This document shows positions 7,136 to 28,260 of a DNA stretch of 56,483 nt, one piece after another (positions within the stretch are counted from its first letter, which is position 1; every line of letters starts with the position of its first letter). Where the stretch lies: positions 1 through 56,483 of the forward strand of contig JAIBAP010000038.1 of assembly GCA_019695115.1 (NCBI GenBank), read 5' to 3'. Source of the stretch: Caldilineales bacterium. GTDB lineage: Bacteria > Chloroflexota > Anaerolineae > J102. A model generated the notes under the pieces. The model saw only the letters and a program-made list of their open reading frames with translations. It was not told the DNA's origin and searched no databases. The position numbers and the translations under genes were made by a program.

Positions 7136-7990
7136 TCAGCCCTGCAGGTGGTCGCGGGCGAAGTCGCGCAGCGAAACAGGCTCACGGCCCAGAAGCCAGC
7201 CCAGAAGGCGCGGGTTGCCGCTCAGACCGAACGCCTCGTAATAGCGAAACATCGCCAACAAGGTGGCGATGGCATAGCCCGAAAGACCCGCGGCCACCGC
7301 TCCTCGGCGCCAGGCCTCGCGGTCGACCACTTTCACCGTCACCGGCCGGCCTGCGCTTTCTGACAGGATGGCGGCCACCTCGGTCTGGCTCAGCGGCGGC
7401 GTACCGGCAAGCTCGTAGATCGCGCCGGCGTGCCCATCCTCCACCAGCACGCGGGCCGCAACTGCGGCCACATCAGCCAGGTCGACGAAACTCAGCCGGG
7501 AAGCAGCGGCATAGGGCACAGGATAGCGGCCCTGGTTCAGGATGGCCTCGGTCGCAGCCAGGATGTTCTGCATATAGACGGCCGGTTGCAGGATGGTGAA
7601 CGCCAGCCCGGACTCGAAGAGAAGCTCCTCCACCCGCAACTTCTGCCAATGATGGGGCATCTTCTCGGTCTGCGGGTGCAGCACTGAGTGGTAGACGAAG
7701 CGCTCCACCCCGGCGCTCGCCGCCGCCCCGATCACCGTGCGGCCGATGGCGACCTCGTGCGGGTGCATATTTGGGCAGATGTGGTAGACCGCCTGCACCC
7801 CCTCCATCGCTCGACGAATGTCGGCCGCATCCTCGAAATCGCCGGCAATGACCCGCTGTGCGCCCGCTGCGGCCATCGCCGTCGCTTGCGCCTGGCTGCG
7901 CACGAACGCGACCGGGCGTTGGCCGTGCTCGGCCAGCGCCCGGATGACCGCCCGGCCGGTCTTGCCCGCGGCCCCTGTGACCAGGATCAT
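7136..7990 (-). CDS. NmrA-like atypical short-chain dehydrogenase family protein
   Basis: The protein has 284 residues. The N-terminal nucleotide motif is MILVTGAAGKTGRAV, with the TGxxGxxG spacing of NAD(P)-binding atypical SDRs. VIAGDFEDAADIRRAMEGVQAVYHI follows the NmrA/HSCARG pattern of recording interactors step by step. The canonical YxxxK is replaced by a KMPHHWQKLRVEELL segment, as in NmrA-like redox sensors and quinone reductases. It lies 15 bases downstream of the zinc alcohol dehydrogenase gene on the same strand, so the two are probably co-transcribed. The substrate is unknown. Confidence 0.82.
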   Translation of the reverse strand: MILVTGAAGKTGRAVIRALAEHGQRPVAFVRSQAQATAMAAAGAQRVIAGDFEDAADIRRAMEGVQAVYHICPNMHPHEVAIGRTVIGAAASAGVERFVYHSVLHPQTEKMPHHWQKLRVEELLFESGLAFTILQPAVYMQNILAATEAILNQGRYPVPYAAASRLSFVDLADVAAVAARVLVEDGHAGAIYELAGTPPLSQTEVAAILSESAGRPVTVKVVDREAWRRGAVAAGLSGYAIATLLAMFRYYEAFGLSGNPRLLGWLLGREPVSLRDFARDHLQG

Positions 7991-15450: not shown

Positions 15451-17589
15451 ATGAACAACACCCGCCTCGTTCCCACCACCTGCCCCTTCTGCGGCGTCGG
15501 CTGCCAGATTCAACTCAATATCCAGGATGATCGCATCATCCGCGTGACGACCGACTTCGACATGGCCCCGAACTATGGCAAGCTTTGCGTCAAGGGGCGC
15601 TTCGGCACGGATTTCGTCCATCACCCCACGCGGCTGAAGAAACCGCTGATCCGCAAGGACATCGTGCCCGGCCAACCCTTTGGCAAGGCCCGCCGCGCCG
15701 TCTCGCTGGCCGCAGACTATCGCGAGGCCACGTGGGATGAGGCGCTCGACCTGATCGCCGACCAATTGGTGGCCATCTACCGGCAGTCGGGCGGGGACGC
15801 ACTGGGCACCTATTGCTGCGCCAAGGCCACCAACGAAGACAACTACATCTTCCAGAAGCTGTTCCGCACCATCTTCGGCACCAACAATGTCGATCACTGC
15901 TCGCGGCTGTGCCATGCCGGCTCGGTGGCGGGGCTGATGCGCACCATCGGCTCGGCGGCCATGTCCAACAGCATCGAGGAGATGGAGACTCTCGACACCT
16001 TCCTCGTCACCGGCTCCAACACCACCGAAAACCACCCCGTCATCGCCCTCAGCCTGAAGAAAGCGGTGGAGCGCGGGGCCAAATTGATCGTGGTTGATCC
16101 GCGCCACATCGAACTGGTCGATTATGCCGCCCTCTGGCTGCAACAGCGACCGGGGACGGATGTGGCCGTCTTCCACGCCATGGCCAACGTCATCGTCAGC
16201 GAGAAACTGTACGACGCCGACTACATCGCCAGGCATACCGAAGGCTTCGAGGCCTACGCCGCCACCCTGGCGCCCTTCACGCCCGCATGGGCCGAGGGCG
16301 TGAGCGGCGTCCCCGCCGCCAAGATCCGGCAGGCGGCGCGCATGTACGCGCAGGCAGAGACGGCGGCGCTCTATTGGGGCATGGGCATCAGCCAGAGCAC
16401 GCACGGGGCCGACAACGCCACGGCGCTCGTCAACCTGGCCATGATGTGCGGGCATCTGGGCAAATACGGCGGCGGTCTGAATCCGTTGCGCGGACAGAAC
16501 AACGTTCAGGGCTGCTCGGATATGGGCGGGCTGCCCAACGTCCTGCCCGGCTACCGCTTCCTCACCGACCCGGCCGTCCGTCAGCAATTCGAACAAGCCT
16601 GGGGGAGGCCGATCAAGCCCACGCCCGGCCTGACCGCGGTGGAGATGGTGCACGCCGCCGACCGCGGCGACATCCGCGCCATCTATGTCATGGGCGAAGA
16701 CCCCATGACCTCGGAGCCAAACCTGAATCACGCCCATCACGCCCTGGAAAAGCTCGATTTGCTGGTGATCCAGGACATCTTCGCCAACGAGACGGCGCTG
16801 TACGGGCATGTCATCCTGCCGGCGGCCAGCTTCGCCGAGAAATCCGGCACCTTCACCAACACCGAACGCCGGGTGCAGCGAGTGCGGCCGGCCCTGCCCC
16901 CGCCCGGCGACGCTCGCCCCGACCTCGACATCCTCCTCGACCTGGCCCGCCGCCTAGAAGCGCGGCTCGGCATCCATGTGCAGCCGGGGTGGGATTACGC
17001 CGGCCCGGCCGAGGTCTGGGCCGAGGTGGGGCGGCTGGCGCCGGAATTTGCCGGCATCACCTACCAGCGGTTGGAGAAAGTCGGCATCCAGTATCCGTGC
17101 CACGATGAAGACCACCCCGGCACCGTCTGTCTGTTCATGGACGGGGTGCCGCTCGGCAAGGGCAAGTTCTGGCCGCTTGAGTTCCAGCCGCCGGTCGAGA
17201 CGCCCGACGAGGTCTACCCGCTCAATCTTTCCACCGGGCGCGTGCTCTATCATTGGCACGGCGGCACGCTCACCCGCCGCTCGGTCCTCAACGACATCTA
17301 CCCCGAACCCGTCGTCGAGGTCAATCCGGTCGATGCCCATGCCATCCCTGCCGTCACCGGCGACCTGGTGCGCATCGCCTCGCGGCGGGGCGAAGTGGTG
17401 GCCCGCGTCGAAGTCACCGACCGCTCGCCCATCGGCGCCGTCTTCTTGCCCTTCCATTTTGCCGAAGCCGCCGCCAACCTGCTCACGCTCGACGCACTCG
17501 ACCCCGCCGCCAAAATCCCCGATTTCAAGAACACCGCCGTCGCCATCACCCCGGCCGAGGAGCACGGCTGGAAGTTGGTGCTACAATGA
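15451..17589 (+). CDS. fdhA: Formate dehydrogenase-like molybdopterin oxidoreductase, catalytic subunit
   Basis: The protein has 712 residues. A [4Fe-4S] site is formed by C11, C14, C18 and C46 (CPFCGVGC then KLCVKG). The active-site pair reads LCHAGSV with Cys154-His155 where E. coli FdhF has selenocysteine-His, so this is a cysteine enzyme. Molybdopterin-binding parts include TGSNTTENHPV, GMGISQSTHG, RGQNNVQGCSDMG and the C-terminal dinucleotide domain ending in IPDFKNTAVAI. LPAASFAEKSGTFTNTERRVQ is typical of formate dehydrogenases. The length equals FdhF; the extra N-terminal iron-sulfur domains of NAD-linked FdhA are absent, and no electron-transfer subunit is adjacent. The nearby fdhD supports the formate dehydrogenase call over nitrate reductase. 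Confidence 0.88.
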   Translation: MNNTRLVPTTCPFCGVGCQIQLNIQDDRIIRVTTDFDMAPNYGKLCVKGRFGTDFVHHPTRLKKPLIRKDIVPGQPFGKARRAVSLAADYREATWDEALDLIADQLVAIYRQSGGDALGTYCCAKATNEDNYIFQKLFRTIFGTNNVDHCSRLCHAGSVAGLMRTIGSAAMSNSIEEMETLDTFLVTGSNTTENHPVIALSLKKAVERGAKLIVVDPRHIELVDYAALWLQQRPGTDVAVFHAMANVIVSEKLYDADYIARHTEGFEAYAATLAPFTPAWAEGVSGVPAAKIRQAARMYAQAETAALYWGMGISQSTHGADNATALVNLAMMCGHLGKYGGGLNPLRGQNNVQGCSDMGGLPNVLPGYRFLTDPAVRQQFEQAWGRPIKPTPGLTAVEMVHAADRGDIRAIYVMGEDPMTSEPNLNHAHHALEKLDLLVIQDIFANETALYGHVILPAASFAEKSGTFTNTERRVQRVRPALPPPGDARPDLDILLDLARRLEARLGIHVQPGWDYAGPAEVWAEVGRLAPEFAGITYQRLEKVGIQYPCHDEDHPGTVCLFMDGVPLGKGKFWPLEFQPPVETPDEVYPLNLSTGRVLYHWHGGTLTRRSVLNDIYPEPVVEVNPVDAHAIPAVTGDLVRIASRRGEVVARVEVTDRSPIGAVFLPFHFAEAAANLLTLDALDPAAKIPDFKNTAVAITPAEEHGWKLVLQ

Positions 17590-17617
17590 GACATTTTGAT
17601 CACTAGAGGTAGGTTCT

Positions 17618-17797
17618 ATGCGACAGATCGTGATCTATCCCGGCGAGGATGATTATTGGGTGGTCGAATGCCCCAGTTTGCCGGGCTGCATCAGCCAGGA
17701 TCGGACGAAAGAGGAAGCCATTGCCAACGCAAAGGAGGCTATCCGGCTCACCATCGCCGTCCTTGAGGAAGATCATCTCCCTGTTCCTTATGCTTAA
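17618..17797 (+). CDS. HicB-like small protein (orphan antitoxin fold)
   Basis: The protein has 59 residues from ATG 17618 to TAA 17797, beginning MRQIVIYPGEDDYWVVECP. The pattern of two strands, SLPGCISQDRTKEEAI and a following helix ending LPVP is that of the HicB partial RNase H-like fold. HicB normally neutralises the HicA mRNA interferase, but no HicA-like gene is adjacent on either side. The last eight bases overlap the fdhD start (ATGCTTAA), so it is translated in the same operon. It may be a solitary regulator or the remnant of a toxin-antitoxin pair. Confidence 0.75.
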   Translation: MRQIVIYPGEDDYWVVECPSLPGCISQDRTKEEAIANAKEAIRLTIAVLEEDHLPVPYA

Positions 17798-18641
17798 CGA
17801 CCTGCCAACGGGCGCGCTTCCCGTCGCCTACCACTTGTACGAGCGCGGGCGCTGGGCGGAGGTAAATGCCGCCATCGTCGAAGAAACCTCGCTCTGTATC
17901 CACGTCAACGGGCAGGAGTTGGCAACCTACCAGTGCTCGCCCCTCGACCAGGAGGCGATGGCGCTGGGCTTTTTGCGTTCGGAAGGATTGATCGCCGGCC
18001 TCGAAGACATCGCCGTGGTCGAGCTTTCGGGCAGGGGGACGTGCGTGGATGTGTGGCTGAAGAAGGAGGTCGAGCTGCCGCAACGCCGGATCAAGACAAC
18101 CGGCTGTGGCGAAGGGGTGACGTTCGATGACCTCAGCAAGGCGCGGGCGCCGTTGAACGACGAGCTCATGGTCGCGCCCGAACGGATCTTCGCCCTGTAC
18201 GAACAGATGAGCAGAAGGATCGCCCTCTATCCTCTCACGCGCGGCATTCATGCTTCGGCGCTGTGCTCGCCCGAGCAGGCGCTGATCGTGGCCGAGGATG
18301 TGGGGCGGCACAACACACTGGACAAGCTGTGGGGCAAGGCCATGCAGCAGGGGATCAGCGTGACCGGCAGGATCATCGTCACCACCGGGCGGATCAGTTC
18401 CGAGATGCTTGGTAAGGCGGCCAAGATGGGCGTCGGCATCATCGCCTCGCGCACCTCGCCCACCAGCCGTTCGACCGGCCTGGCCCGCGCCTGGAATATC
18501 ACGGTGGTGGGCTATCTGCGCCGCGAGAGTATGCGCGTCTATTCGGCGCCGCAGCGACTGTGCGCACCGGGGACGGCAGCGCCACTGTCAGTGACCGTGC
18601 CGCCATCATCCGACCTCGTCGCGTCTGGCGTAGGACCCTGA
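17790..18641 (+). CDS. fdhD: FdhD, formate dehydrogenase sulfurtransferase accessory protein
   Basis: The protein has 283 residues from ATG 17790 (MLNDLPTGALPVAYHL), whose start overlaps the HicB-like gene by eight bases. FdhD transfers sulfur from a cysteine desulfurase to the molybdenum cofactor of formate dehydrogenase. Landmarks are VEETSLCIHVNGQEL, LALGFLRSEGLI-type helix, the loop KTTGCGEG with Cys106, and the strongly conserved AEDVGRHNTLDK and TTGRISSEMLGKAAKMGV. The E. coli CxxC pair is reduced to one cysteine here (CGEG), a variation seen outside enterobacteria. About 35 C-terminal residues beyond the fold have no recognised role. The cyclase gene starts 11 bases downstream. Confidence 0.92.
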   Translation: MLNDLPTGALPVAYHLYERGRWAEVNAAIVEETSLCIHVNGQELATYQCSPLDQEAMALGFLRSEGLIAGLEDIAVVELSGRGTCVDVWLKKEVELPQRRIKTTGCGEGVTFDDLSKARAPLNDELMVAPERIFALYEQMSRRIALYPLTRGIHASALCSPEQALIVAEDVGRHNTLDKLWGKAMQQGISVTGRIIVTTGRISSEMLGKAAKMGVGIIASRTSPTSRSTGLARAWNITVVGYLRRESMRVYSAPQRLCAPGTAAPLSVTVPPSSDLVASGVGP

Positions 18642-18652
18642 GTTTTGCCGCC

Positions 18653-21600
18653 ATGCCTGACCAAATGCGTTGGCTTGTCCCGCACACGATCCTTTACCAC
18701 CACGCCCGCAACCAGCAGCGTGGGCGTTTGCGGGCGGCCTCGATGTTCGTGGACATCTCCGGCTTCACGCAGCTGACCGAGACCCTGATGCAGCATGCCA
18801 AAGACGGAGCCGAGGTGTTGACCGAGGTGCTGAACAGCATCTTCCACCCCATCGTGCAGGAGGTTTACGACCACGGCGGCTTCATCTCCACGTTCGCTGG
18901 CGATGCCTTCACCGCCCTCTTCCCGCTGCGGGAGCCAGAAGCGGTTGTGCACGCCACCCAGACCGCCTTCTTCGTCAGCGAGTTCTTCGCCCGCAATCGG
19001 CTGGTCGAGACCAAATACGGGAGCTTCGAGCTGGGGGCCAAGGTGGGGCTGGGGGTAGGGCGGGTGGAGTGGGGCATCCTCGGTCAGGGGATGCACGCTT
19101 TCTACTTCCGCGGCGAAGCGGTGGATGAGTGTGCTGCCAGCGAACACCACGCCAGCCGCGGCGAGATCGTGGCCAGCCAGATGCTGGTGGACAAGTTGGG
19201 CGGGCAGGCGTCGGCGGTCGCTGTTAGCGGCGGTTTTGCCCGGCTGCTGAGCCTCGATGCCGCCGTTTTGCCGCGCTTGCGCCGGCGGCCCCGGCCGGCG
19301 CGAGGCGCCCTGGCCCCCTTCCTGCTCGACGCTGTCATCGATCTGACGCAGCGGGCCGAATTCCGCACTGTCGCCAGCATCTTCCTCGCCTTCGATGAAC
19401 CGGGCGACGAGAAGGCTCTCGATGCCTTCACCTCAGAGGTGCTCGAACTGGCCCGCCGCTATGGCGGCTACTTCAATAAGATGGATTTTGGCGACAAGGG
19501 CGGGGTGATGTTGCTCTTGTTTGGCGCACCCACATCGTACGAAGACAATCTCGCCCGCGCCGCCAATTTCCTGCTGGCGCTGCGGGGCGAGGGGGAGCGG
19601 GCGGAGGTGAGCTGGCGGGCGGGGCTGACTTTCGGCACCGTCTATGCGGGGATCATGGGCGGTGAAGAACGCTGTGAATACACGGCCATCGGCGACATCG
19701 TCAACCTGTCGGCGCGGCTGGCCATGCACGCCGCCTGGGGCGAGGTCTGGGCCAGCGCCGAAGTGCGGTCGCTCCTGGCCGGCGACTACGACTTCGAAAC
19801 CCAGGGCAGCCATCAGTTCAAGGGCAAGGGCGCGGCGTTGGAGGTCTTTCGTCTGCTCCGCCGCAAGGAAGTGGGCGAGAAACTCTATGCCTCGCCCATG
19901 TTTGGCCGCCAGCACGAGATGTCGGTTCTGCACTCGTTCCTGGCACCAATGCTGGAGCGGGGGCGCTTCGCCGGCCTGATCTACGTCTATGGCGAACCCG
20001 GCATGGGCAAGAGCCGGCTGGTGTATGAGGTCAGACAAGACCTGGCGAGCAGACATGCCCTCGGCTGGGCCTACTGCCCCAGCGAAGGCGTCCTCCGCCA
20101 ATCGCTTAACCCGATCGTCTACTACCTACGCGGCTTCTTTGGCCAGTCCAAAGAGCAAAGCGAGGACGAGAACAAAGCCCGCTTCGGCGCCGCCCTGACC
20201 GGGCTGATCGGCCGGCTGCCGGACAACCCAGAGGGGGCCGAGCTGGGGCGAGAATTGGATCGCACCCGCTCGATGTTGGGCGCGCTGGTCGACCTGCGCT
20301 GGCCCGGCTCGCTCTACGAAACCCTCGAACCCAAACTGCGGTTCGAGAACACGCTCACCGCCCTCGTCAGCCTGATGCAGGCCGAGAGCCGACTGCATCC
20401 GCTGGTGATCGAGATCGACGACGGCCAGGTGATGGACGCCGACACGGCCAACCTGCTGCAACTCCTCACCCGCGAGGCGGCCGATTTTCCCGTCGCCTTC
20501 ATCGTCAGCGCCCGCTACCGCGACGACGGCAGCAAGTTCCGAGTGCAAGTGGATGAAGCGGTGGCGGTGAGCGAGGTTGATCTGAACTATCTGGCCGCCA
20601 ATGACCTGCGTGCTTTTGCCGAGCAGTCGCTGGGCGAAGTCCTGGCCGATGACGTAGTCGATCTGCTGGCCGAAAAAACGAACGGCAACCCCTTCTTCAT
20701 CGAGCAATTGGCGCTCGACCTGCGGGAACGAAAACTGCTGGTTGTCGACCCGGGCGGGAAAGGCCTGACCCTGGCCCCGGCCTACGCCACCGAGGTCCCC
20801 ACCACGATCACGGCCGTGCTGGTGGCCCGGCTCGACCGTCTCTCGGCTGCGATCAAACAGGTGGTGCAGACGGCGGCCGTGTTGGGCCGGGAGTTCGAGC
20901 TGCTGGTGCTGTCGCACATGCTGCGCGGCGACGCCGAAATGAGAACAAAGGTGGCCGCAGCAACCGGACAGGATATTTGGTCGGCGGTGGATGAACTGCG
21001 CTATCTGTTCAAGCACGCCTTGCTGCGCGATTCGGCCTACGACATGCAGTTGCGCGCCCACCTGCGCGGGCTGCACCAGGCCGCCGGCGAAGCCTTCGAG
21101 ACCGTCTATGCGCGCGATCTTGCCAGCCGCTATGTCGACCTGGCCTACCACTTCGAGCAAGCGGGCGTCGTCGACAAAGCCCGGCGCTACCTGCACCAGG
21201 CCGGCGATCAGGCCAAGGCCAACTACCTGAACCAGATGGCGCTTTCGCTCTTCGAGCGGCTGTTGGCACTGCTCGACCCGCACGACCCGGCGCGGGCAGC
21301 TGTCTACGAACAGCGGGGCGAGATCTACGCCACCATCGGCGAGCACGACCTGGCCCTGCAACAGTACAAGGCGGCGCTGGCCAGCCTGAGCGCCAACACC
21401 GGCCTAGCAGTCGATCGCGAGGCGCCTGGGCTTTACCGCAAAGTCGGCCTGGTGTACATGAACAAGGGCGAGTATGCGGTGGCCTTCGAGTGGATGGGCC
21501 GGGCCGAGCGCATAGCGTTGGAAGCTGGCAATACCGAGATGGCTCGCATCCACACCGCCACCGCCGCCGTGCTCTACCGGCAAGGCAAGGCCACCGAGGC

Positions 21601-22573
21601 CCTGAGCCGCTGCCAGATGGGTTTGGAGATCGCCGCCCAACTGAACGAGGCGGCTGAGATCGCCTACGGCCACATGCTGCGCGGCACCATCCACACCGGG
21701 CTGGGCCAGCTCGACGAAGCCATCGCCGACTACGAGCAGAGCCTGGCCCTGAGCCGCAACCTGGGCGATTTGCAGCAACTGACGAAGGCCGACAACAGCC
21801 TCGGCGCCGTCTACTACTACAAGGGCGACTGGGAGCGCGCCATCCATCACTATCGCCAGAGCCTGGAGGTGGCCGAGAAGATCGGTTATGTCGACCAACA
21901 GGCTACCGTGTCCAACAACCTGGGCGAGATCTTCATCATCCAGGGTCGGCTGGCCGAGGCCGCCGCCGCCTTTCAGAGTTGCCTGAATACCTGGCGGCGC
22001 ACTGGTTTTCAGGTGGGGGTGGCGCTCTCGTATTGGAACCTGGCCCAGGTTGCGGTCATGAGCGAGGAATGGCAGGCGGCCCTCGACCACCTGCAACGCA
22101 GCCTGGAAACGCTCGAACGTCTCGGCGCGCGCGATTGGCTGACAGCCGAGGTCTATCGGCTGCTGGCCGAGGTGCACCTGGGGTTGGGCAAACTGGCCGA
22201 GGCCTGGCGCTACGCCGATCAGTCACTCGAAATCGCGACCACACAGGACCTGAAGCTGATCGAAGGCAACGCCCGCCGCGTCCAGGGTCGCCTCCACCGC
22301 GAACACAATCGCTGGCAAGAAGCCGAACAAGCCTTGCTGGCCAGCCTGAAACTGGCCGAAGAACTGGGCATCCGCCACGAGCAAGGGCAGGCGTTGATTG
22401 AGTTGGCGCATCTCTATCGGGCCTGGGAGCAGACCGAAGCAATCGACGCCCACGAAAGCACGGTGGAGGAGATTTTGAACCGCGCCATCACGCTGTTCGA
22501 AGAACTGGACGCGCGCTGGCATCTCGACAGGGCGCGGGCCTTACGCGCAGAAATCAGGGCGATCGGAGGCTGA
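18653..22573 (+). CDS. Soluble-adenylyl-cyclase-like protein: two cyclase domains, AAA/STAND ATPase, TPRs
   Basis: The protein has 1306 residues from ATG 18653. Cyclase domain 1 (about 28-205) keeps the metal Asp in MFVDISGFTQLTE (D34) and GGFISTFAGDAFTALF (D84), but has ECAASEHHA where transition-state Asn/Arg are expected. Cyclase domain 2 (about 238-410) lacks the first Asp (IFLAFDEPG) but has YTAIGDIVNLSARLA with Asn and Arg. The two would complement in one composite site, as in mammalian soluble adenylyl cyclase, which shares this C1-C2-ATPase-TPR order. Walker A GEPGMGKS is at 447-454, Walker B-like LVIEIDDGQ follows, then a GREF winged segment, with TPRs from about 820 to the end. It is cytosolic, and the TPR/ATPase part probably senses a signal. 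The crp gene starts after 9 bases. Confidence 0.88.
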   Translation: MPDQMRWLVPHTILYHHARNQQRGRLRAASMFVDISGFTQLTETLMQHAKDGAEVLTEVLNSIFHPIVQEVYDHGGFISTFAGDAFTALFPLREPEAVVHATQTAFFVSEFFARNRLVETKYGSFELGAKVGLGVGRVEWGILGQGMHAFYFRGEAVDECAASEHHASRGEIVASQMLVDKLGGQASAVAVSGGFARLLSLDAAVLPRLRRRPRPARGALAPFLLDAVIDLTQRAEFRTVASIFLAFDEPGDEKALDAFTSEVLELARRYGGYFNKMDFGDKGGVMLLLFGAPTSYEDNLARAANFLLALRGEGERAEVSWRAGLTFGTVYAGIMGGEERCEYTAIGDIVNLSARLAMHAAWGEVWASAEVRSLLAGDYDFETQGSHQFKGKGAALEVFRLLRRKEVGEKLYASPMFGRQHEMSVLHSFLAPMLERGRFAGLIYVYGEPGMGKSRLVYEVRQDLASRHALGWAYCPSEGVLRQSLNPIVYYLRGFFGQSKEQSEDENKARFGAALTGLIGRLPDNPEGAELGRELDRTRSMLGALVDLRWPGSLYETLEPKLRFENTLTALVSLMQAESRLHPLVIEIDDGQVMDADTANLLQLLTREAADFPVAFIVSARYRDDGSKFRVQVDEAVAVSEVDLNYLAANDLRAFAEQSLGEVLADDVVDLLAEKTNGNPFFIEQLALDLRERKLLVVDPGGKGLTLAPAYATEVPTTITAVLVARLDRLSAAIKQVVQTAAVLGREFELLVLSHMLRGDAEMRTKVAAATGQDIWSAVDELRYLFKHALLRDSAYDMQLRAHLRGLHQAAGEAFETVYARDLASRYVDLAYHFEQAGVVDKARRYLHQAGDQAKANYLNQMALSLFERLLALLDPHDPARAAVYEQRGEIYATIGEHDLALQQYKAALASLSANTGLAVDREAPGLYRKVGLVYMNKGEYAVAFEWMGRAERIALEAGNTEMARIHTATAAVLYRQGKATEALSRCQMGLEIAAQLNEAAEIAYGHMLRGTIHTGLGQLDEAIADYEQSLALSRNLGDLQQLTKADNSLGAVYYYKGDWERAIHHYRQSLEVAEKIGYVDQQATVSNNLGEIFIIQGRLAEAAAAFQSCLNTWRRTGFQVGVALSYWNLAQVAVMSEEWQAALDHLQRSLETLERLGARDWLTAEVYRLLAEVHLGLGKLAEAWRYADQSLEIATTQDLKLIEGNARRVQGRLHREHNRWQEAEQALLASLKLAEELGIRHEQGQALIELAHLYRAWEQTEAIDAHESTVEEILNRAITLFEELDARWHLDRARALRAEIRAIGG

Positions 22574-22582
22574 GAAAGATCA

Positions 22583-23296
22583 ATGTCCGCGCTCGCCATC
22601 TTGCAGCAGACTCCGGGTTTCGCCGATCTGCCCACGCCCGATTTGGTCGATCTGGCAGACAGGATGAGCCAGCGCACTTTTGCACGGGGGATGATCATTT
22701 TCCATAAGGGCAGCATCGGCCAGAGCCTCTATCTGATCGGCTCCGGCCATGTACGGATTTTTCTGCTTAGCGAGACGGGTCGCGAGATTTCGCTCGAAGT
22801 TTTGTCTCGTGGCGATTACTTTGGCGAATTGGCGCTGCTAGACAATCTGCCGCGCTCGGCCGGGGCGCTGGCCATGGAGCGAACGGTGACGTATACCCTG
22901 CAGCGCGAGGATTTCTGGCGGCTGCTCGACGCCCACCCCAGGCTGGCTCTGCCGATGTTGACGCTGATGGGAAAGCGGCTTCGGCAGATGATCGACTATG
23001 CCGAGCATCTGGCCTTTACCGATGTGCAGGGTCGAGTGGCGGCCAAGCTCCTGGAGTTGGCGGAGCGCTTTGGCGAGACGACAGGTGGGGCAAGCGGCGG
23101 AGGCGGAGCGGGCATCGATCTCGTGTTGCCGATGACGCAGGGCGAGCTGGCAACCTGGGTAGCATCCAGCCGCGAGAGCGTGAACAAGGTGTTGGGAGTT
23201 TTCCGGGACCAGCGTTTGATCCGGCTGGACGGGCAGCACATCGCCATCCTCGACCAGCGCGGCCTGCGGCGGTGGCTGGCCAGCGCCAGGGTGTGA
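22583..23296 (+). CDS. Crp/Fnr-family cyclic nucleotide-responsive regulator
   Basis: The protein has 237 residues. The N-terminal cNMP-binding domain has the phosphate-binding cassette GDYFGELALLDNLPRSAG with E82, R91 and S92, the residues that hold cAMP in Crp. A dimer helix follows (about 115-160). The C-terminal Crp-type winged helix reads MTQGELATWVASSRESVNKVL. The ASSRE recognition helix keeps the Arg-Glu pair that reads GTG/CAC half-sites in E. coli Crp. A low-complexity GGASGGGGAG loop lies between the domains. It sits directly after the cyclase gene, so cAMP is its likely ligand. A perfect Crp consensus site overlaps its own stop codon. Confidence 0.92.
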   Translation: MSALAILQQTPGFADLPTPDLVDLADRMSQRTFARGMIIFHKGSIGQSLYLIGSGHVRIFLLSETGREISLEVLSRGDYFGELALLDNLPRSAGALAMERTVTYTLQREDFWRLLDAHPRLALPMLTLMGKRLRQMIDYAEHLAFTDVQGRVAAKLLELAERFGETTGGASGGGGAGIDLVLPMTQGELATWVASSRESVNKVLGVFRDQRLIRLDGQHIAILDQRGLRRWLASARV

Positions 23297-23307
23297 TGAA
23301 GTTCACA
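23292..23307. promoter_or_regulatory. Perfect Crp-type operator TGTGA-N6-TCACA
   Basis: The dyad TGTGA TGAAGT TCACA is identical to the E. coli Crp consensus in both half-sites. It overlaps the stop codon of the crp gene (TGA 23294-23296) and lies 21 bases before a -35-like box. Its centre is about 64 bases upstream of the start point predicted from the -10 box, close to class I Crp spacing. The upstream regulator has the matching recognition helix residues. Confidence 0.75.
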
Positions 23308-23406: not shown

Positions 23407-24573
23407 ATGACAACCGAAGCTGTACAGAGCATCATTGGCCGGGCCGTCACCGAAGCGGCCTTCCGCTCCGCTCTCTTTGCCGATCCCGATCAGGCATTGG
23501 CCGGTTATGCGCTGACCGACGCAGAAAAGGCATCATTGCGAGCGATCGATTTCGAGACGATGGATTCATTTGCGGGCGCGCTGGATGATCGCATCTCCAA
23601 GGCGTTTGCCCTCGGTTCGCTTTTTGGCGCCGACATGGGTGCGGCGGCATTGGGCGGCATGGATGCTGGCAGTTCTGCGGGGGCGGGCCTGGGAGCGGCT
23701 GATCCGGCCGGGTCTGGCGCTACCGGATTCGCGGCCTGGGATCCGGGCAATTCCGGCGACGCCGGATTCGCTGCCTGGGATCCGGGCAATACTGGCGACG
23801 CCGGATTCGCTGCCTGGAGTCCGGATAATGCCGGAGCAGGATTGGGCGCTGACGCAGGCAGCGCCGGCAGCGTAGGCCTGGGCGCTGATGCAGGCAGCGC
23901 CGGCAGTGTCGGCCTGGGCGCCGACGCCGGTAGCGCCGGCAGCATGGGTCTAGGGGCTGATGCAGGCAGCGCCGGCAGCGTGGGCCTGGGCGCCGATGCT
24001 GGCAGCGCTGGCAGCGTGGGCTTGGGCGCCGATGCTGGCAGCGCCGGCAGCGTGGGCTTGGGCGCCGATGCTGGCAGCGCCGGCAGCGTGGGCCTGGGCG
24101 CCGACGCCGGCAGCGCCGGCAGCGTGGGCTTGGGCGCCGACGCCGGCAGCGCCGGCAGCGTGGGCTTGGGTGCCGATGCTGGCAGCGCCGGCAGCGTGGG
24201 CCTGGGCGCTGATGCTGGCAGCGCCGGCAGCGTAGGCCTGGGCGCTGATGCTGGCAGCGCCGGCAGCGTAGGCCTGGGCGCCGATGCCGGCAGTTCTTCA
24301 GTCCCGTTCGCAGATGGTAGCATTGGCATGGGCGCGGATGCGGGCAGTTCGGCTGGTGCGAGCGCCGGGGCGAGTGCAGGCAGTTCGGTCGTCGATGGCA
24401 GCATCGGCATGGGCGCAGATGCTGGTAGTTCGGCTGGTGCAAGCGCTGGAGCGAGTGCAGGCAGTTCTTCAGTCCCGTTCGCAGATGGTAGCATTGGCAT
24501 GGGCGCGGATGCGGGCAGTTCGGCCGGGGCGGGCCAGATCGGCTTTGCCTCCGAGATCATGCGCAACCCCTGA
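23407..24573 (+). CDS. Repeat-rich peptide with Franean1_4349-type RiPP leader-like N-terminus
   Basis: The protein has 388 residues from ATG 23407 with AAAGGAG nine bases upstream. Residues 1-70 look like a leader of the Franean1_4349/NHLP-like RiPP precursor group: IGRAVTEAAFRSALFADPDQAL, then LTDAEKASLRAIDFETM and FAGALDDRISKAF. The rest is low complexity: three 13-residue GFAAWDPGNSGDA units (about 107-145), twelve 12-residue GADAGSAGSVGL units (147-290), then longer GSIGMGADAGSSAGASAG blocks. There is no Cys and no signal peptide. It could be a precursor with repeated core peptides, or a large repetitive surface protein exported through a leader. The next gene encodes a PqqD-like/M50 protease, the type of partner expected for a leader peptide. 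The RiPP assignment is by resemblance only. Confidence 0.7.
   Translation: MTTEAVQSIIGRAVTEAAFRSALFADPDQALAGYALTDAEKASLRAIDFETMDSFAGALDDRISKAFALGSLFGADMGAAALGGMDAGSSAGAGLGAADPAGSGATGFAAWDPGNSGDAGFAAWDPGNTGDAGFAAWSPDNAGAGLGADAGSAGSVGLGADAGSAGSVGLGADAGSAGSMGLGADAGSAGSVGLGADAGSAGSVGLGADAGSAGSVGLGADAGSAGSVGLGADAGSAGSVGLGADAGSAGSVGLGADAGSAGSVGLGADAGSAGSVGLGADAGSAGSVGLGADAGSSSVPFADGSIGMGADAGSSAGASAGASAGSSVVDGSIGMGADAGSSAGASAGASAGSSSVPFADGSIGMGADAGSSAGAGQIGFASEIMRNP
23725..23838 (+). repeat. Three 39-bp repeats (GFAAWDPGNSGDA)
   Basis: Three tandem units starting at 23725, 23764 and 23803 encode 13 residues each with Trp-Asp-Pro or Trp-Ser-Pro. The third drifts into the following 36-bp repeat block. 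Confidence 0.85.
23845..24276 (+). repeat. Twelve 36-bp repeats (GADAGSAGSVGL)
   Basis: Twelve exact-period 36-bp units encode GADAGSAGSVGL, with one Met for Val in unit 3. Unlike the 120-bp TPR repeats, these units carry many synonymous differences (GAT/GAC, GCT/GCC, GTG/GTC/GTA), so the amino-acid sequence appears to be under selection. A thirteenth, altered unit begins at 24277. Confidence 0.93.
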
Positions 24574-24647
24574 AACCACCATCGCGGATGCTGAGCTTAT
24601 CTGCCAAACTGCGCTCTGTGACCGTAGGATAGACAAACTGCTGTTCG

Positions 24648-24686
24648 GGCGCTGGATTGCCGGCAAGGTGCCGGCAATCCAGCGCC
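24648..24686 (+). terminator. 17-bp perfect hairpin between peptide and protease genes
   Basis: GGCGCTGGATTGCCGGC (24648-24664) pairs perfectly with 24670-24686 around the loop AAGGT, followed by TTTGCTGTTG. It sits 74 bases after the peptide gene and 24 bases before the protease start. It may be a partial terminator or mRNA 3' stabiliser, so that more peptide than protease is made. Confidence 0.72.
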
Positions 24687-24710
24687 TTTGCTGTTGCACC
24701 GGAGTCGGAT

Positions 24711-27700
24711 ATGGAGAACTCGACCATGTGGAACCAGATTACCGAAGCCGTCCGGCAGCCGCCGCGCAGGACGGGCTTGTGGGCCTGGCTGGCCGCCAAA
24801 GTAGACCTGGCCCAATACCGGCCGCAGGCGGCGCCTGGGGTGGAGGTCAGCCATTTGCAGGGGCGCGAGGGCGAGTATTATGTGATCAAGAATCCCGCTG
24901 CCAAGACCTATTACCGGCTGAACGACAAGGATTTCTTCCTCTGGCAGCAGATGGATGGCACGAAAAGTGTCAAAGACCTGGTGATCGCCTTTTTCACCGC
25001 CTATGGTTCCTTCGCCTTCCCCCGTGTGGCAACGCTGGTGCAGGGTCTGAAAACAAACCTCCTTCTCAGCGATCAGCCGGCGGGCGTCTATCAAGCAACG
25101 CATCGCCAACTTGAGCAACGCCGCCCCGACCATTGGTTGAACTCACTCTGGCAGGGATTCTTGCAGCGACCCTTCGCCATCGATGGGCTGGATGGGATCA
25201 TCGGCGGGGTCTATCGCCGCGTGGCCTGGCTGTTCTACACCCGTATCGTTCAAATCCTCTTCCTCCTCATCAGCATCCTGGGCCTGGTCGCCTTTGTCCG
25301 CTTGATGAGGGCGGGCGGTCACAACTTGTTCAGAAGCGGTGGGTCGGTGTTGCTTGGGCTACTCAGCCTTCTCATCGCCAATATGGTCGTCATCTTCGTC
25401 CACGAAATGGGTCACGCGCTAACCGTCAAACACTACGGTCGCGAGGTGCGACGGGCCGGGTTTATGATCTACTTTGGCATGCCTGCCTTTTTCGTCGATA
25501 CCACCGACATCTGGATGGAAGCCAAACGCGGTCGTCTGGCCGTCACCTGGGCGGGGCCTTATATCAACCTCGTTTGTAGTGGGTTGGCGGTCATCCTCCT
25601 TACCCTTTGGCCGGCGATGCGAGGCGCCGGTTTCCTTTTCCAGTTCGCTTTCCTGGGCTACCTCATTGTCTTCGTCAACCTCAACCCGCTGCTGCAACTG
25701 GATGGCTACTATCTGCTGATGGATTGGCTGGAAATCCCGCTGCTGCGCTTCAAATCCCTCAGCTTCTTGCGCGAGGGTTTGCCCAAGAAATTTCGTCGCC
25801 CCGACCCCACAGCGCCGGGACGAGCGCGCTTCGCCCTGCCTTCGCTCTCGGCCTTTTCGCGCGAAGAGCGGATTTTCGCTGTTTTCGGGCTGCTTTCGGC
25901 CATTTGGTCGGTCTATGCCATCTATCTGGCCGGCTCCTTCTGGCAGCGGCAACTCGCCAACTCGGTCAACGCCCTCCTTCGGCAAGGTAATGATGCCGGC
26001 CGCTTTGCCGCTGCACTCGGCGGCGTAGCCATCAGCCTGCCCTTTGTCCTCGCCCTGGGCTTTGCGGCTTTCGCTCTGGGCCGCGGCTTGCTGAAATCGC
26101 TGGCGCGCAAGGGGGTCTTTGCCAGCAATACCCGCGTCGCCGTGCTCCTGGCTGCAGGCGCCCTCGGCCTCAGCCTCGCCCCTCGCCGGCTGGCGGCGCC
26201 CATTCTGGTCACAGGTCTGAGCCTGGCCGCCCTGATCGTCGCTGTGATCATGGCCGCTCGCAACATCCGCGTTTATGCCGGGGCGCGCAGGGTCTGGCAT
26301 TTCTGGCTGCTGGGCGGTTTGGCGGCGCTGTTGTTGGCGGTCGAGGCAGCGACGATGGCTGGCTGGCTGGCGCCCGATTTGTTCTGGTTGATCAACCTGG
26401 CCCTCACCGTACTGGCGCTGGCATCGTTGGCCGGGGCGTTGTTCGAGTTCACCGCCCGCGGGCGGACGAGTTTTGGCCCGGCCTGGATTCTGATCGGCCT
26501 CGGCCTGGCCTCGGCAGCGCTTGCCACCCTCCTGAGGTCCGCCGCCCCCGAATTGCTTGTACTCGGCTTGCTCCTGCTGGCCACCGGACTCTTTTTGTAC
26601 GATCTATCCTCGCGACGTCTTCAGCTGACGCTGCCACGACCCGATTTCGCTGCCGATCTCGATGACGAAGTGCGTTTACAGCGGGCGGTCGGTTGGATGA
26701 TGAACGGCATCAACCATGTGGTTGGCGAAATCTCAGGCCCACGAGCCGAAAGACGAGTGCGGGCGCGATTGCAGGGCAATGCCGCCACGGCCGGCTGGCG
26801 CATCGGCATCGATGCTTCAGACACGCGCCCCCCCGCCGATATGACGCTGGCCGAGCAGGGGCGCGAGTCGGCAGAGGCTATGAATGTGCTACTCGAACTG
26901 GTGCAGGCCGAGATCGGCGATAAGCTGACAACCAGGACGCTCCAACATGCCTATGACTTGCTTCCCTGGGAAGAACGCGAGATCGGCGCTGAAGTCCTCT
27001 TTCCCCAGGTCGAGCGGGCGGCGGCGCTCAGCCGCGATTTCAGGGATACGCGCAACGACTACACGGCCCTACTGCGCCAAATGCCACTCTTTGCCAGCAT
27101 GACCGCCCACGAGATCCAACTACTCGCGCGGCGGTTGAAAGCCACGACGCACCCCGCCGGCGAGGTCATCATCCGCCAGGGAGAGACCGGAGATCGCTTC
27201 TACATCATCAAACAAGGTGAGGTGGAGGTCAGCCGGGCGGACGAGCGCGGCGTGACCGAGGTGGTGGCGCGGCTCCACCGCGGCGACTACTTCGGCGAGT
27301 TGGCCCTCCTGGCTGACGCCCCCCGCAATGCCACCTGCCGCGCCCTCATTTCCACACAGACTGTGGCCCTCAGTCGCCGCGAGTTCGAGCTGCTGGTGAA
27401 GAACCGCTTTGCCATGCGCGAAAAGCTGGACAGGTCGATCACCCACGCCGACCTGTTGCGCCGCATCCCCCTGTTCGACGAACTGGATGGGCGGCAAATC
27501 CAGCAGCTCACCGCCGAATTGCATCCACGCCAGCTTGAGGCCGGCGTCGAGTTGATCCGCCAGGGCGAGGAAGGCGACGCCTTCTACATCATCGAGGCCG
27601 GGCGGATGCAGGTGTCGGTCGGCGAGCTGGGCCAGGAGCGCATCGTGCGCGAGTTGGGGCCGGGTGAATATGTGGGCGAGGTGGCCTTGCTGCACAAGGT

Positions 27701-27869
27701 GCCGCGCACGGCCACGGTGCGGGCGCTGACGGCGGGACGGGTGTTGGTGCTGGACAAAGAATCGTTCGACCGTTTCGTTTCCATGCATTTGCAGGCGGGT
27801 CGCATGCTAGAGCGCACAGCCAGCCGCCATCTGGTCGATTCGCGCCGGGCGGCGCTCTCAGCCGCCTGA
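24711..27869 (+). CDS. PqqD-like/M50 membrane metalloprotease fused to two cNMP-binding domains
   Basis: The protein has 1052 residues from ATG 24711 with GGAG upstream. Residues 35-110 resemble the PqqD/RiPP-recognition fold (YYVIKNPAAKTYYRLNDKDFFLWQQMDGTKSV, with breaks, then LVIAFF). A membrane domain follows: HEMGH zinc motif at 231-235, DIWMEAKRGRLAVTWAGPYIN, and the third-ligand motif NLNPLLQLDGYY with Asp331, as in S2P/M50 site-2 proteases and 'putative peptide zinc metalloprotease' proteins. About ten more membrane helices reach residue 650. After a cytosolic linker come two cNMP domains (about 788-895 and 918-1030) with intact cassettes, FGELALLADAPRNAT and VGEVALLHKVPRTAT, both holding the Glu and Arg that bind cyclic nucleotide. 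Likely role: cAMP-gated cleavage or export of the upstream peptide. The domain calls are strong; the role is inference. Confidence 0.85.
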   Translation: MENSTMWNQITEAVRQPPRRTGLWAWLAAKVDLAQYRPQAAPGVEVSHLQGREGEYYVIKNPAAKTYYRLNDKDFFLWQQMDGTKSVKDLVIAFFTAYGSFAFPRVATLVQGLKTNLLLSDQPAGVYQATHRQLEQRRPDHWLNSLWQGFLQRPFAIDGLDGIIGGVYRRVAWLFYTRIVQILFLLISILGLVAFVRLMRAGGHNLFRSGGSVLLGLLSLLIANMVVIFVHEMGHALTVKHYGREVRRAGFMIYFGMPAFFVDTTDIWMEAKRGRLAVTWAGPYINLVCSGLAVILLTLWPAMRGAGFLFQFAFLGYLIVFVNLNPLLQLDGYYLLMDWLEIPLLRFKSLSFLREGLPKKFRRPDPTAPGRARFALPSLSAFSREERIFAVFGLLSAIWSVYAIYLAGSFWQRQLANSVNALLRQGNDAGRFAAALGGVAISLPFVLALGFAAFALGRGLLKSLARKGVFASNTRVAVLLAAGALGLSLAPRRLAAPILVTGLSLAALIVAVIMAARNIRVYAGARRVWHFWLLGGLAALLLAVEAATMAGWLAPDLFWLINLALTVLALASLAGALFEFTARGRTSFGPAWILIGLGLASAALATLLRSAAPELLVLGLLLLATGLFLYDLSSRRLQLTLPRPDFAADLDDEVRLQRAVGWMMNGINHVVGEISGPRAERRVRARLQGNAATAGWRIGIDASDTRPPADMTLAEQGRESAEAMNVLLELVQAEIGDKLTTRTLQHAYDLLPWEEREIGAEVLFPQVERAAALSRDFRDTRNDYTALLRQMPLFASMTAHEIQLLARRLKATTHPAGEVIIRQGETGDRFYIIKQGEVEVSRADERGVTEVVARLHRGDYFGELALLADAPRNATCRALISTQTVALSRREFELLVKNRFAMREKLDRSITHADLLRRIPLFDELDGRQIQQLTAELHPRQLEAGVELIRQGEEGDAFYIIEAGRMQVSVGELGQERIVRELGPGEYVGEVALLHKVPRTATVRALTAGRVLVLDKESFDRFVSMHLQAGRMLERTASRHLVDSRRAALSAA

Positions 27870-28047: not shown

Positions 28048-28260
28048 ATGAACTGCTGGCATTGTGATCGCCCCGCCCACGCCTGTTGCCGTTTCTGCGG
28101 GCGGGCTGTGTGCAAAGAACATACCCAGGTTTTTCCCCACATCGAAGCCATCTACCGCAACGATCAGGGCGCATACAAGGCCCTGGTGGTGGCGAATGCT
28201 GTCTATTGCGGCGCCTGTCAGCCGCGCGAAGACCCTATCGATCTGCCGCCGTTACCCTGA
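28048..28260 (+). CDS. Small zinc-finger protein (B-box/DUF2180-like)
   Basis: The protein has 70 residues from ATG 28048 with a GAGGAGG ribosome site. Cysteine and histidine pairs occur as CWHC, CCRFCGRAVCKEH and a C-terminal CGAC, enough for two zinc sites in a cross-brace as in B-box or DUF2180 proteins. The segment CRFCGRAVCKEH is the characteristic part. Such proteins are small cytosolic binding modules of unknown function in archaea and Chloroflexota. The 223-bp gap downstream holds no recognisable feature. Confidence 0.72.
   Translation: MNCWHCDRPAHACCRFCGRAVCKEHTQVFPHIEAIYRNDQGAYKALVVANAVYCGACQPREDPIDLPPLP

Follow-up and report, generated by a model that had tools for sequence, protein, structure and literature searches.

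We propose a model in which a membrane protease from a Caldilineales bacterium (Chloroflexota) is an RRE-guided intramembrane leader peptidase for an NHLP precursor and is gated by cAMP, with cAMP also driving transcription of that precursor; we judge this proposal to stand evenly between right and wrong. The window, a stretch of 56,483 nucleotides, belongs to contig JAIBAP010000038.1, on whose + strand the genes for a cyclase, a CRP-type regulator, the NHLP precursor, the protease and a Cys-rich protein follow one another in a same-strand run. The presence of a protease with an RRE and cyclic-nucleotide-binding (CNB) domains beside a precursor, a CRP-type switch and a cyclase suggests cAMP control of peptide maturation.

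Domain architecture of the protease

The protease (P0001) is encoded at 24711–27869 (+) by an unbroken open reading frame of 1052 amino acids with an ATG start; the longest frame begins at a TTG at 24657. ORF, domain and model evidence agree on an RRE-S2P-CNB-CNB order, and the original prediction of an M50 protease joined to a PqqD-like domain and two CNBs is borne out by sequence, profile and fold. Fold searches with the AlphaFold2 model (mean pLDDT 88) confirm RRE, site-2 protease (S2P) and PKA-R-type folds. The PqqD-like RRE domain (residues 36–123; 24816–25079, +), assigned by fold, lies N-terminal to the protease and aligns with 6jx3 (VIA-align Z 11.1) and 5v1u (Z 10.7), structures solved with bound lasso-peptide leader. 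The S2P (M50) core (residues 153–416; 25167–25958, +) is recognized by profile comparison to MJ0392 (E 1.7e-7) and by fold matches to 3b4r, SpoIVFB and RseP (RseP/SpoIVFB Z 10.5–11.6). PF05402 (PqqD; 15.9 against a cut-off of 23.4 bits) and PF02163 (Peptidase M50; 20.8 against a gathering threshold of 27.2 bits) remain sub-threshold on the protease, yet both domains are upheld by profile and fold comparison. The HEMGH zinc/catalytic motif (residues 231–235; 25401–25415, +) and the LDG third-ligand motif (residues 330–332; 25698–25706, +) are intact, as had been claimed; H, E and H of the former and D and G of the latter are invariant across all 45 aligned rows. In the structure predicted for the whole chain, read together with the motifs, the CNB pockets do not appear collapsed and the M50 site does not appear non-catalytic. 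A second hydrophobic block of about seven helices (residues 428–635; 25992–26615, +) is missing from relatives of ~720 residues; no fold was assigned to it, the CNBs having taken up the whole-model fold list.

The fusion recurs in the phylum. A homologue of residues 1–486 is found at E ≤ 1e-15 in 61 of 400 genomes, and 54 of 80 mapped homologues carry two CNBs and one carries three; on these counts the fusion is not due to chance, and an artefact or one-off event is ruled out. The 25 rows with no or one CNB include several frames that end at a contig edge (e.g. L072, L111, L120, L076, L115 and L121). In L109 the CNBs are encoded in an overlapping frame, L075 and L078–L080 are NHLP-linked relatives devoid of CNBs, and L051 has the permuted order CNB-RRE-S2P. 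A genome of the same genus (G001) harbours a gene that lacks the RRE and the HExxH half and has no NHLP match; this paired absence counts in favour of the proposed link between protease and precursor, although the gene loss may be a draft-assembly error. In the literature searched (titles, abstracts and passages of PMC7159879 and PMC10986499) no description of an S2P/M50-CNB fusion was found.

The NHLP precursor as candidate substrate

Upstream of the protease, at 23407–24573 (+), lies the gene for a precursor-like protein of 388 amino acids of the NHLP clan (Os1348 family), which scores 72.4 on NF038399 (cut-off 40 bits) and 49.9 on PF14407 (cut-off 48). Its leader spans residues ~1–70 and repeats follow: a 36-bp tandem repeat in 12.5 copies (23843–24293, +) encodes LGADAGSAGS(V/M)G twelve times, as near-identical 12-residue units whose codon differences over all pairs are 249 synonymous and 11 non-synonymous. 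An NHLP gene is located within 5 kb of 25 of 68 protease matches, in 20 of 61 genomes, where 0.35 would be expected by a Poisson estimate that treats related genomes as independent, an excess of about 70-fold. A small Cys/His-rich protein of 70 amino acids (P0003; 28048–28260, +) is a conserved neighbour, with homologues at 37 of 79 protease loci and at 20 of the 21 that have an NHLP gene.

The S2P fold would also suit a site-2 protease of the classical kind, which would act on a regulator tethered to the membrane, by releasing or degrading it, and not on the NHLP protein, and two clades, one in the Chloroflexales and one in the Ardenticatenia/Anaerolineae, have no NHLP gene nearby. Against this stand the leader-binding type of the RRE fold, the strong NHLP linkage and a scan of 10 neighbouring frames that turned up no gene for an anti-sigma or a tethered factor, and we consider such a role improbable. 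SpoIVFB and mjS2P/MJ0392 likewise combine an S2P core with a C-terminal cytosolic sensor domain of nucleotide type; however, they have CBS where the window protein has CNB, they have no RRE, and Pro-sigmaK takes the place of the NHLP precursor.

Another parallel is daptide MpaP, reported in excerpts of PMC10036551 as an RRE-dependent intramembrane leader peptidase. The two proteins share an N-terminal RRE, an S2P core and, by analogy for the window protein, a putative role as leader peptidase of a neighbouring precursor. The daptide RRE-S2P model (NF041824) matches 41 of 41 A3 members, and on the window protease it scores 149.8 bits, below its cut-off of 300. The systems differ further in that daptide tailoring genes were not seen among the scanned neighbour frames, that the precursor is of another family, and that the window protein bears CNBs, of which those excerpts make no mention for MpaP.

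It is also conceivable, though in our estimation quite unlikely, that the NHLP protein functions uncleaved, in the manner of Os1348, an antibiotic-related protein from Pseudomonas, or that it is a repeat protein with a structural role; the protease would then set its amount or provide immunity. Os1348 is described in PMC7726476 as a stable homodimer that is possibly itself a bacteriocin, and many NHLP proteins hold little beyond the leader while some have cores of more than several hundred residues. Repeats that are short, strongly conserved and differ mostly by synonymous substitutions sit better with a core peptide present in multiple copies, and the RRE-S2P precedent is one of leader removal.

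For the leader peptidase that we favour, the genomes appear to leave a vacancy. The NHLM C39 peptidase-ABC exporter (TIGR03796) exceeds its cut-off in none of the 26 genomes examined, the window's own included, which leaves room for another leader peptidase; weak ABC matches occurred in all 14 control genomes of that search, and the exporter was dropped as a partner. HetC and the NHLM exporters resemble the window protein in placing a CNB on an enzyme with a presumed role in peptide cleavage and export, but they use a C39-type peptidase and an ABC exporter instead of RRE-S2P, and the HetC CNB binds ppGpp. We take TIGR03896 to be a CNB linked to NHLM peptidase-exporter operons.

Cyclic-nucleotide sensing and transcriptional control

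The C-terminal part of the protease comprises CNB-A (residues 786–905; 27066–27425, +), with the cassette FGELALLADAPRNAT at 27291–27335 (residues 861–875), and CNB-B (residues 915–1035; 27453–27815, +), with the cassette VGEVALLHKVPRTAT at 27672–27716 (residues 988–1002). PF00027 recognizes two stretches (E 3e-48; 162.2 bits, cut-off 27.5), and both phosphate cassettes are complete, retaining the Glu and Arg that had been noticed in them. The likeness to the PKA regulatory subunit, which had been drawn from the tandem arrangement, holds for each domain by fold. CNB-B of the model aligns with 5kjy (Z 22.0, rmsd 1.7 over 139 residues) and superposes on cAMP-bound PKA, whereas superpositions of the tandem pair give an rmsd of 10–17 Å; the relative orientation of the CNBs thus differs or is not predicted by the model. 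With PKA-R and PKG the window protein shares tandem CNBs and complete cassettes (5j3u, E 3e-18); unlike theirs, its CNBs are covalently joined to a protease and would not serve to inhibit a kinase, and the inter-domain orientation in the model is different.

Would cAMP be the ligand? In fold comparison CNB-B matches best the PKA G316R/A336T mutant and, equally well, CNB-B of PKG II, and it carries an RTA triplet, which also occurs in PKG. Of 45 aligned homologues, 18 retain the cassette Arg in CNB-B and 19 in CNB-A, and 24 have the CNB-A Glu; canonical pockets are therefore dispensable family-wide. The loss of the pocket Arg in most of the family is in line with a protein that is still an NHLP leader peptidase but whose CNBs either have a different ligand, such as ppGpp or cGMP, or simply serve to position or dimerise the enzyme, as are the dispensability of the CBS sensor domain in SpoIVFB and the finding, in passages of PMC10986499, that the HetC CNB has ppGpp and not cAMP as its ligand. 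With both cassettes complete in this protein, and with an adenylyl-type cyclase and a CRP-type operator at the locus, we regard this alternative as doubtful. The cassette Arg is associated with the NHLP link (14/18 versus 4/27; Fisher p 3.5e-5), but on a 'quick' tree of 54 rows, with rows lacking two CNBs or a readable cassette left out, the trait shows about 3 changes and 3 independent pairs and is not independent of phylogeny; with so few changes, the association was set aside as functional proof.

The CRP/FNR-family regulator (237 amino acids; 22583–23296, +; PF00027 and HTH_Crp_2) has 4byy, 4cyd and 3d0s as its nearest solved chains (E 1e-30 to 2e-31). A perfect CRP-type operator, TGTGATGAAGTTCACA (23292–23307, +), starts 115 bp 5' of the precursor ATG and is one of 3 exact TGTGA-N6-TCACA sites in the 5.99 Mb genome. 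The same operator is found at 116 bp from the precursor ATG in the sister locus L068, and related palindromes at 98–107 bp in a second clade. A further exact operator-type site lies 17 bp 5' of the first listed start of the permuted gene in L051, and L011 has one exact operator-type site. The loci hold no more such operators than shuffles do (exact 2 versus 2.0; one-mismatch 18 versus 26.3), so that enrichment was dropped and only position and conservation count in favour. No convincing E. coli-type sigma-70 promoter was seen 5' of the precursor. A 19-pair hairpin between the precursor and protease genes (24647–24687, +) is a possible partial terminator in a region whose terminator-like sites are not in excess (6 versus 5.2 in shuffles).

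The gene run opens with a sAC/ADCY10-like class III cyclase with two catalytic domains, AAA and TPR (18653–22573, +; longest frame from 18560). Aligned with 4cm2, it keeps the metal Asp pair, the Lys/Thr adenine contacts and the Asn/Arg, roles that we assign from general knowledge. It shares with ADCY10 the C1-C2-AAA-TPR order and the aligned catalytic residues (E 1.8e-22), but has T and A at the residues aligned with K95 and R176, which we take to be the bicarbonate site. Cyclase genes lie near 4 of 21 NHLP loci (0.58 expected) and 6 of all 79 loci (2.1 expected), given a background of ~2.25 per Mb (139 matches in 61.7 Mb, summed over the genome table); this linkage is modest and was dropped as a strong signal.

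A model for cAMP-governed peptide maturation

What would such a module do? In the model that we favour, the RRE would bind the NHLP leader of the upstream-encoded repeat protein, and cleavage by the S2P core would separate this leader from the repeat core. The two C-terminal CNBs would switch cleavage on (or off) with cAMP, whose source is probably the sAC-like cyclase at the head of the run. cAMP would also load the CRP-type regulator, which would bind the operator at 23292 and drive the precursor's transcription; the same transcription, continuing past the hairpin, would reach the protease gene. Thus cAMP may govern how much of a repeat-rich peptide or polyprotein is supplied as well as how it matures, and the product would then be released or exported. 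Ligand-gated proteolysis, as first suggested for this protein, is a plausible hypothesis. The original prediction did not include the substrate candidate, the CRP gene with its perfect operator, the sAC-like cyclase or the leader-binding character of the PqqD-like domain; with these, what had looked like a sensor-bearing protease becomes a probable module for peptide maturation.

More tentatively, and against the balance of probability, the circuit may resemble a 'prohormone convertase', in which cAMP from the co-encoded cyclase drives transcription of the multi-copy precursor and, by way of the tandem PKA-type CNBs, allosterically opens the RRE-guided protease that cuts it, so that one short peptide would be released in many copies under two cAMP-dependent gates. 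Small-ligand gating of intramembrane proteases is largely an open question, and a CNB fusion that comes with a candidate substrate, cyclase and operator lets it be tested directly in cya/crp strains of E. coli. The NHLP/Os1348 clan, for which no C39 exporter passed its cut-off in these 26 genomes, gains a candidate leader peptidase, and repeat-rich, possibly multi-copy peptides are indicated in the little-studied phylum Chloroflexota. If the circuit holds true, it would represent a cyclic-nucleotide-gated intramembrane protease, a kind for which the literature searched yielded no description, and a new RiPP-like class that extends across Chloroflexota and into Parafrankia.

Domain composition and predicted structure

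The protease gene (24711-27869, + strand) is an intact ORF encoding 1052 aa. The original prediction described an M50 metalloprotease joined to a PqqD-like domain and two cyclic-nucleotide-binding (CNB) domains, and this composition is borne out by sequence, profile and fold: two PF00027 stretches (E 3e-48 in a Pfam scan, in which PF02163 and PF05402 score under their cut-offs), a family profile of 41 rows (the window protein and 40 relatives) that matches the solved site-2 protease (S2P) MJ0392 at E 1.7e-7, and the predicted RRE and S2P folds. In NCBIfam, the daptide intramembrane metalloprotease model scores best (residues 40-416, E 2.7e-42), at 145 bits against a cut-off of 300. The HEMGH and LDG motifs had been called intact, and indeed none of the 45 aligned homologue rows deviates at HExxH or at the Asp-Gly of LDG.

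AlphaFold2 modelling of the whole chain (45 sequences; mean pLDDT 88.0, pTM 0.64), a check proposed with the original prediction, recovered the RRE, the S2P core and PKA-type CNB folds; residues 1-425 were modelled with pLDDT 91.7 and pTM 0.86 (41 sequences). In the model the N-terminal domain is an RRE, and by fold it comes closest to lasso-peptide RREs whose structures include their leaders (6jx3, Z 11.1, rmsd 2.4 over 82; 5v1u, Z 10.7). The core resembles RseP orthologues (7w6y, Z 11.6), SpoIVFB:pro-sigmaK (8vjl, Z 10.5) and mjS2P (3b4r, Z 9.4), the last also being the top Foldseek match (E 1.6e-3). Although a Z of ~11 is only a modest score when the core is helical, the sequence profile and the motifs concur with the predicted S2P fold. 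Helix counting suggests about 12 membrane helices, so that RRE and CNBs would share one side. The tandem had been said to recall the PKA regulatory subunit. Each CNB is alike, CNB-B matching cAMP-bound PKA RIalpha CNB-B closely (5kjy, Z 22.0, rmsd 1.7 over 139), but the match of the tandem to PKA R (5j3u, E 3e-18) comes with a large rmsd; thus the likeness is limited to single domains and does not extend to their arrangement.

The precursor, its operator and the neighbouring genes

Upstream on the same strand (+) lie genes for formate dehydrogenase alpha (15451-17589), FdhD (17649-18641), a cyclase of sAC layout (18653-22573), a CRP-family regulator (22583-23296) and an NHLP-clan (Os1348 family) precursor-like protein (23407-24573). 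In the NHLP protein, a leader of ~70 residues precedes a core that contains the unit LGADAGSAGS(V/M)G twelve times; of the codon differences between these units, counted across all unit pairs, 249/260 are synonymous. NHLP cores are wholly different from lineage to lineage, yet often tandem repeats (AIDRGGEELTGVP at homologous locus L068, SDTLAQ at L146, QSTVES at L139, TARN at L122, AEAGS at L158); the remaining NHLP proteins are a leader alone or carry several hundred low-complexity residues. L147 (2999-20000, G103:C20) has a series of six or more NHLP-leader ORFs, a few of them ~1000 residues long, next to a CNB-less RRE-S2P gene. A 19-pair hairpin (24647-24687) separates the precursor and protease genes; in peptide operons, hairpins at such positions often reduce downstream expression.

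The only exact TGTGA-N6-TCACA site in the window (23292-23307) starts 115 bp upstream of the precursor ATG. Genome-wide there are three such sites and none of the reversed control pattern. Among 80 loci (1.23 Mb), the sole other exact site lies 116 bp upstream of the NHLP start at L068, the sister locus of the window gene; as shuffled sequence of equivalent length is expected to hold 2.0, the number is ordinary and position is what counts as evidence. A related palindrome occurs 98-107 bp before the NHLP gene at L122, L139, L146 and L062, and the six aligned promoters all share TGTG, CACA and a second GTGA. The solved chains closest to the regulator, with an almost identical recognition helix in alignments, are 4byy, 4cyd and 3d0s, which we take to be GlxR and Rv3676, with binding sites of the TGTGA-N6-TCACA form. 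Separately, L051 carries an exact site (7291-7306) just upstream of a permuted three-CNB RRE-S2P gene.

In an alignment with 4cm2, the cyclase has the same metal aspartates, lysine (of NK), threonine (of EYT) and Asn/Arg (of VNLxAR), but differs at the positions of K95 and R176. In sAC the aspartates serve for metal, the lysine and threonine for adenine contact, and K95 and R176 for the bicarbonate site. The cyclase starts ~12 bp past the FdhD stop, formate dehydrogenase alpha and FdhD running straight into it (15451-22573). This gene run hints at formate/CO2-linked cAMP signalling, despite the unconserved aligned bicarbonate-site residues. At the beginning of the window, a truncated reading frame (2-766, 255 aa, open at that end) is similar to the AAA-TPR part of the sAC-like cyclase.

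Distribution and cassette conservation

Homologues of protease residues 1-486 occur in 61/400 phylum genomes, and the NHLP model NF038399 matches 59/63 genomes searched with it and 0/14 control genomes. In the match tables, leaving out genomes G025 and G001, an NHLP gene lies within 5 kb of 25/68 protease matches (20/61 genomes), against 0.35 expected. The best 80 matches of a species-genome collection scan represent 79 loci, mostly from Chloroflexota, with two Parafrankia and drafts labelled Latescibacterota, Edwardsbacteria, Gracilibacteria, Deltaproteobacteria and Acetobacteraceae. NHLP genes are present at 21 of these 79 loci. Flank lengths vary, so a missing neighbour is weaker evidence than a present one. 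A very constant RRE-S2P neighbour (37/79 loci, including 20/21 NHLP loci) is the Cys/His-rich gene, found in the window 3' of the protease (28048-28260, +; 70 aa, MNCWHCDRPAH...); its product, with only a sub-threshold C5HCH match, is perhaps a processing partner. Cyclases occur at 4/21 NHLP loci (0.58 expected) and 2/58 others (1.5 expected), a modest linkage. At L069 a CHASE2 cyclase stops 54 bp upstream of the protease gene, and at L162 a cyclase stops ~14 bp upstream of an NHLP gene.

The protease comes in three layouts: a long one, a short one that lacks the second hydrophobic block, and a permuted one in which two or three CNBs stand at the N-terminus; L051 and L067 (6816-10502) have three ahead of RRE-S2P. 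A CNB-less clade (L082, L083, L091, L096, L101, L106 and others) carries a ~160-aa N-terminal extension, and its neighbour gene, by our reading of the sequence, resembles an FHA-domain protein, a possible exchange of sensory input.

Across 45 aligned homologues, the phosphate cassette retains Glu in 24 and Arg in 19 at CNB-A, and Glu in 45 and Arg in 18 at CNB-B, figures that weigh against the gating proposal. An NHLP neighbour accompanies 14/18 Arg-bearing rows versus 4/27 others, an association tempered by just 3 changes of the trait on the tree. In the draft genome G001, of the same genus, a decayed gene copy (L049 8498-11218, G001:C18) retains the C-terminal half with both CNBs, and the Cys/His-rich gene is kept too, while the RRE and HExxH half is absent and a frame break follows; the NF038399 search gave no match in this genome. 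The pattern is consistent with joint loss of substrate and protease, or with an assembly fault in this single draft.

A putative cAMP-gated leader peptidase

What might such a protease do? Daptide MpaP is described as an RRE-dependent, intramembrane RRE-S2P leader peptidase (PMC10036551), and TmcP, of the S2P clan, as taking off the TMcin leader (PMC13252029). Since RRE-S2P proteins are known as leader peptidases, we read the window protease as a putative NHLP leader peptidase. Two accounts caution against presuming cAMP or gating: HetC likewise bears a CNB, essential on this peptide-processing exporter, yet its ligand is reported as ppGpp (PMC10986499), and the CBS domain of SpoIVFB is reported as non-essential (PMC11486902). 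The most likely, if unproved, use of the CNBs is cAMP gating, and we propose that the protease would remove the NHLP leader under the control of cAMP acting through its CNBs.
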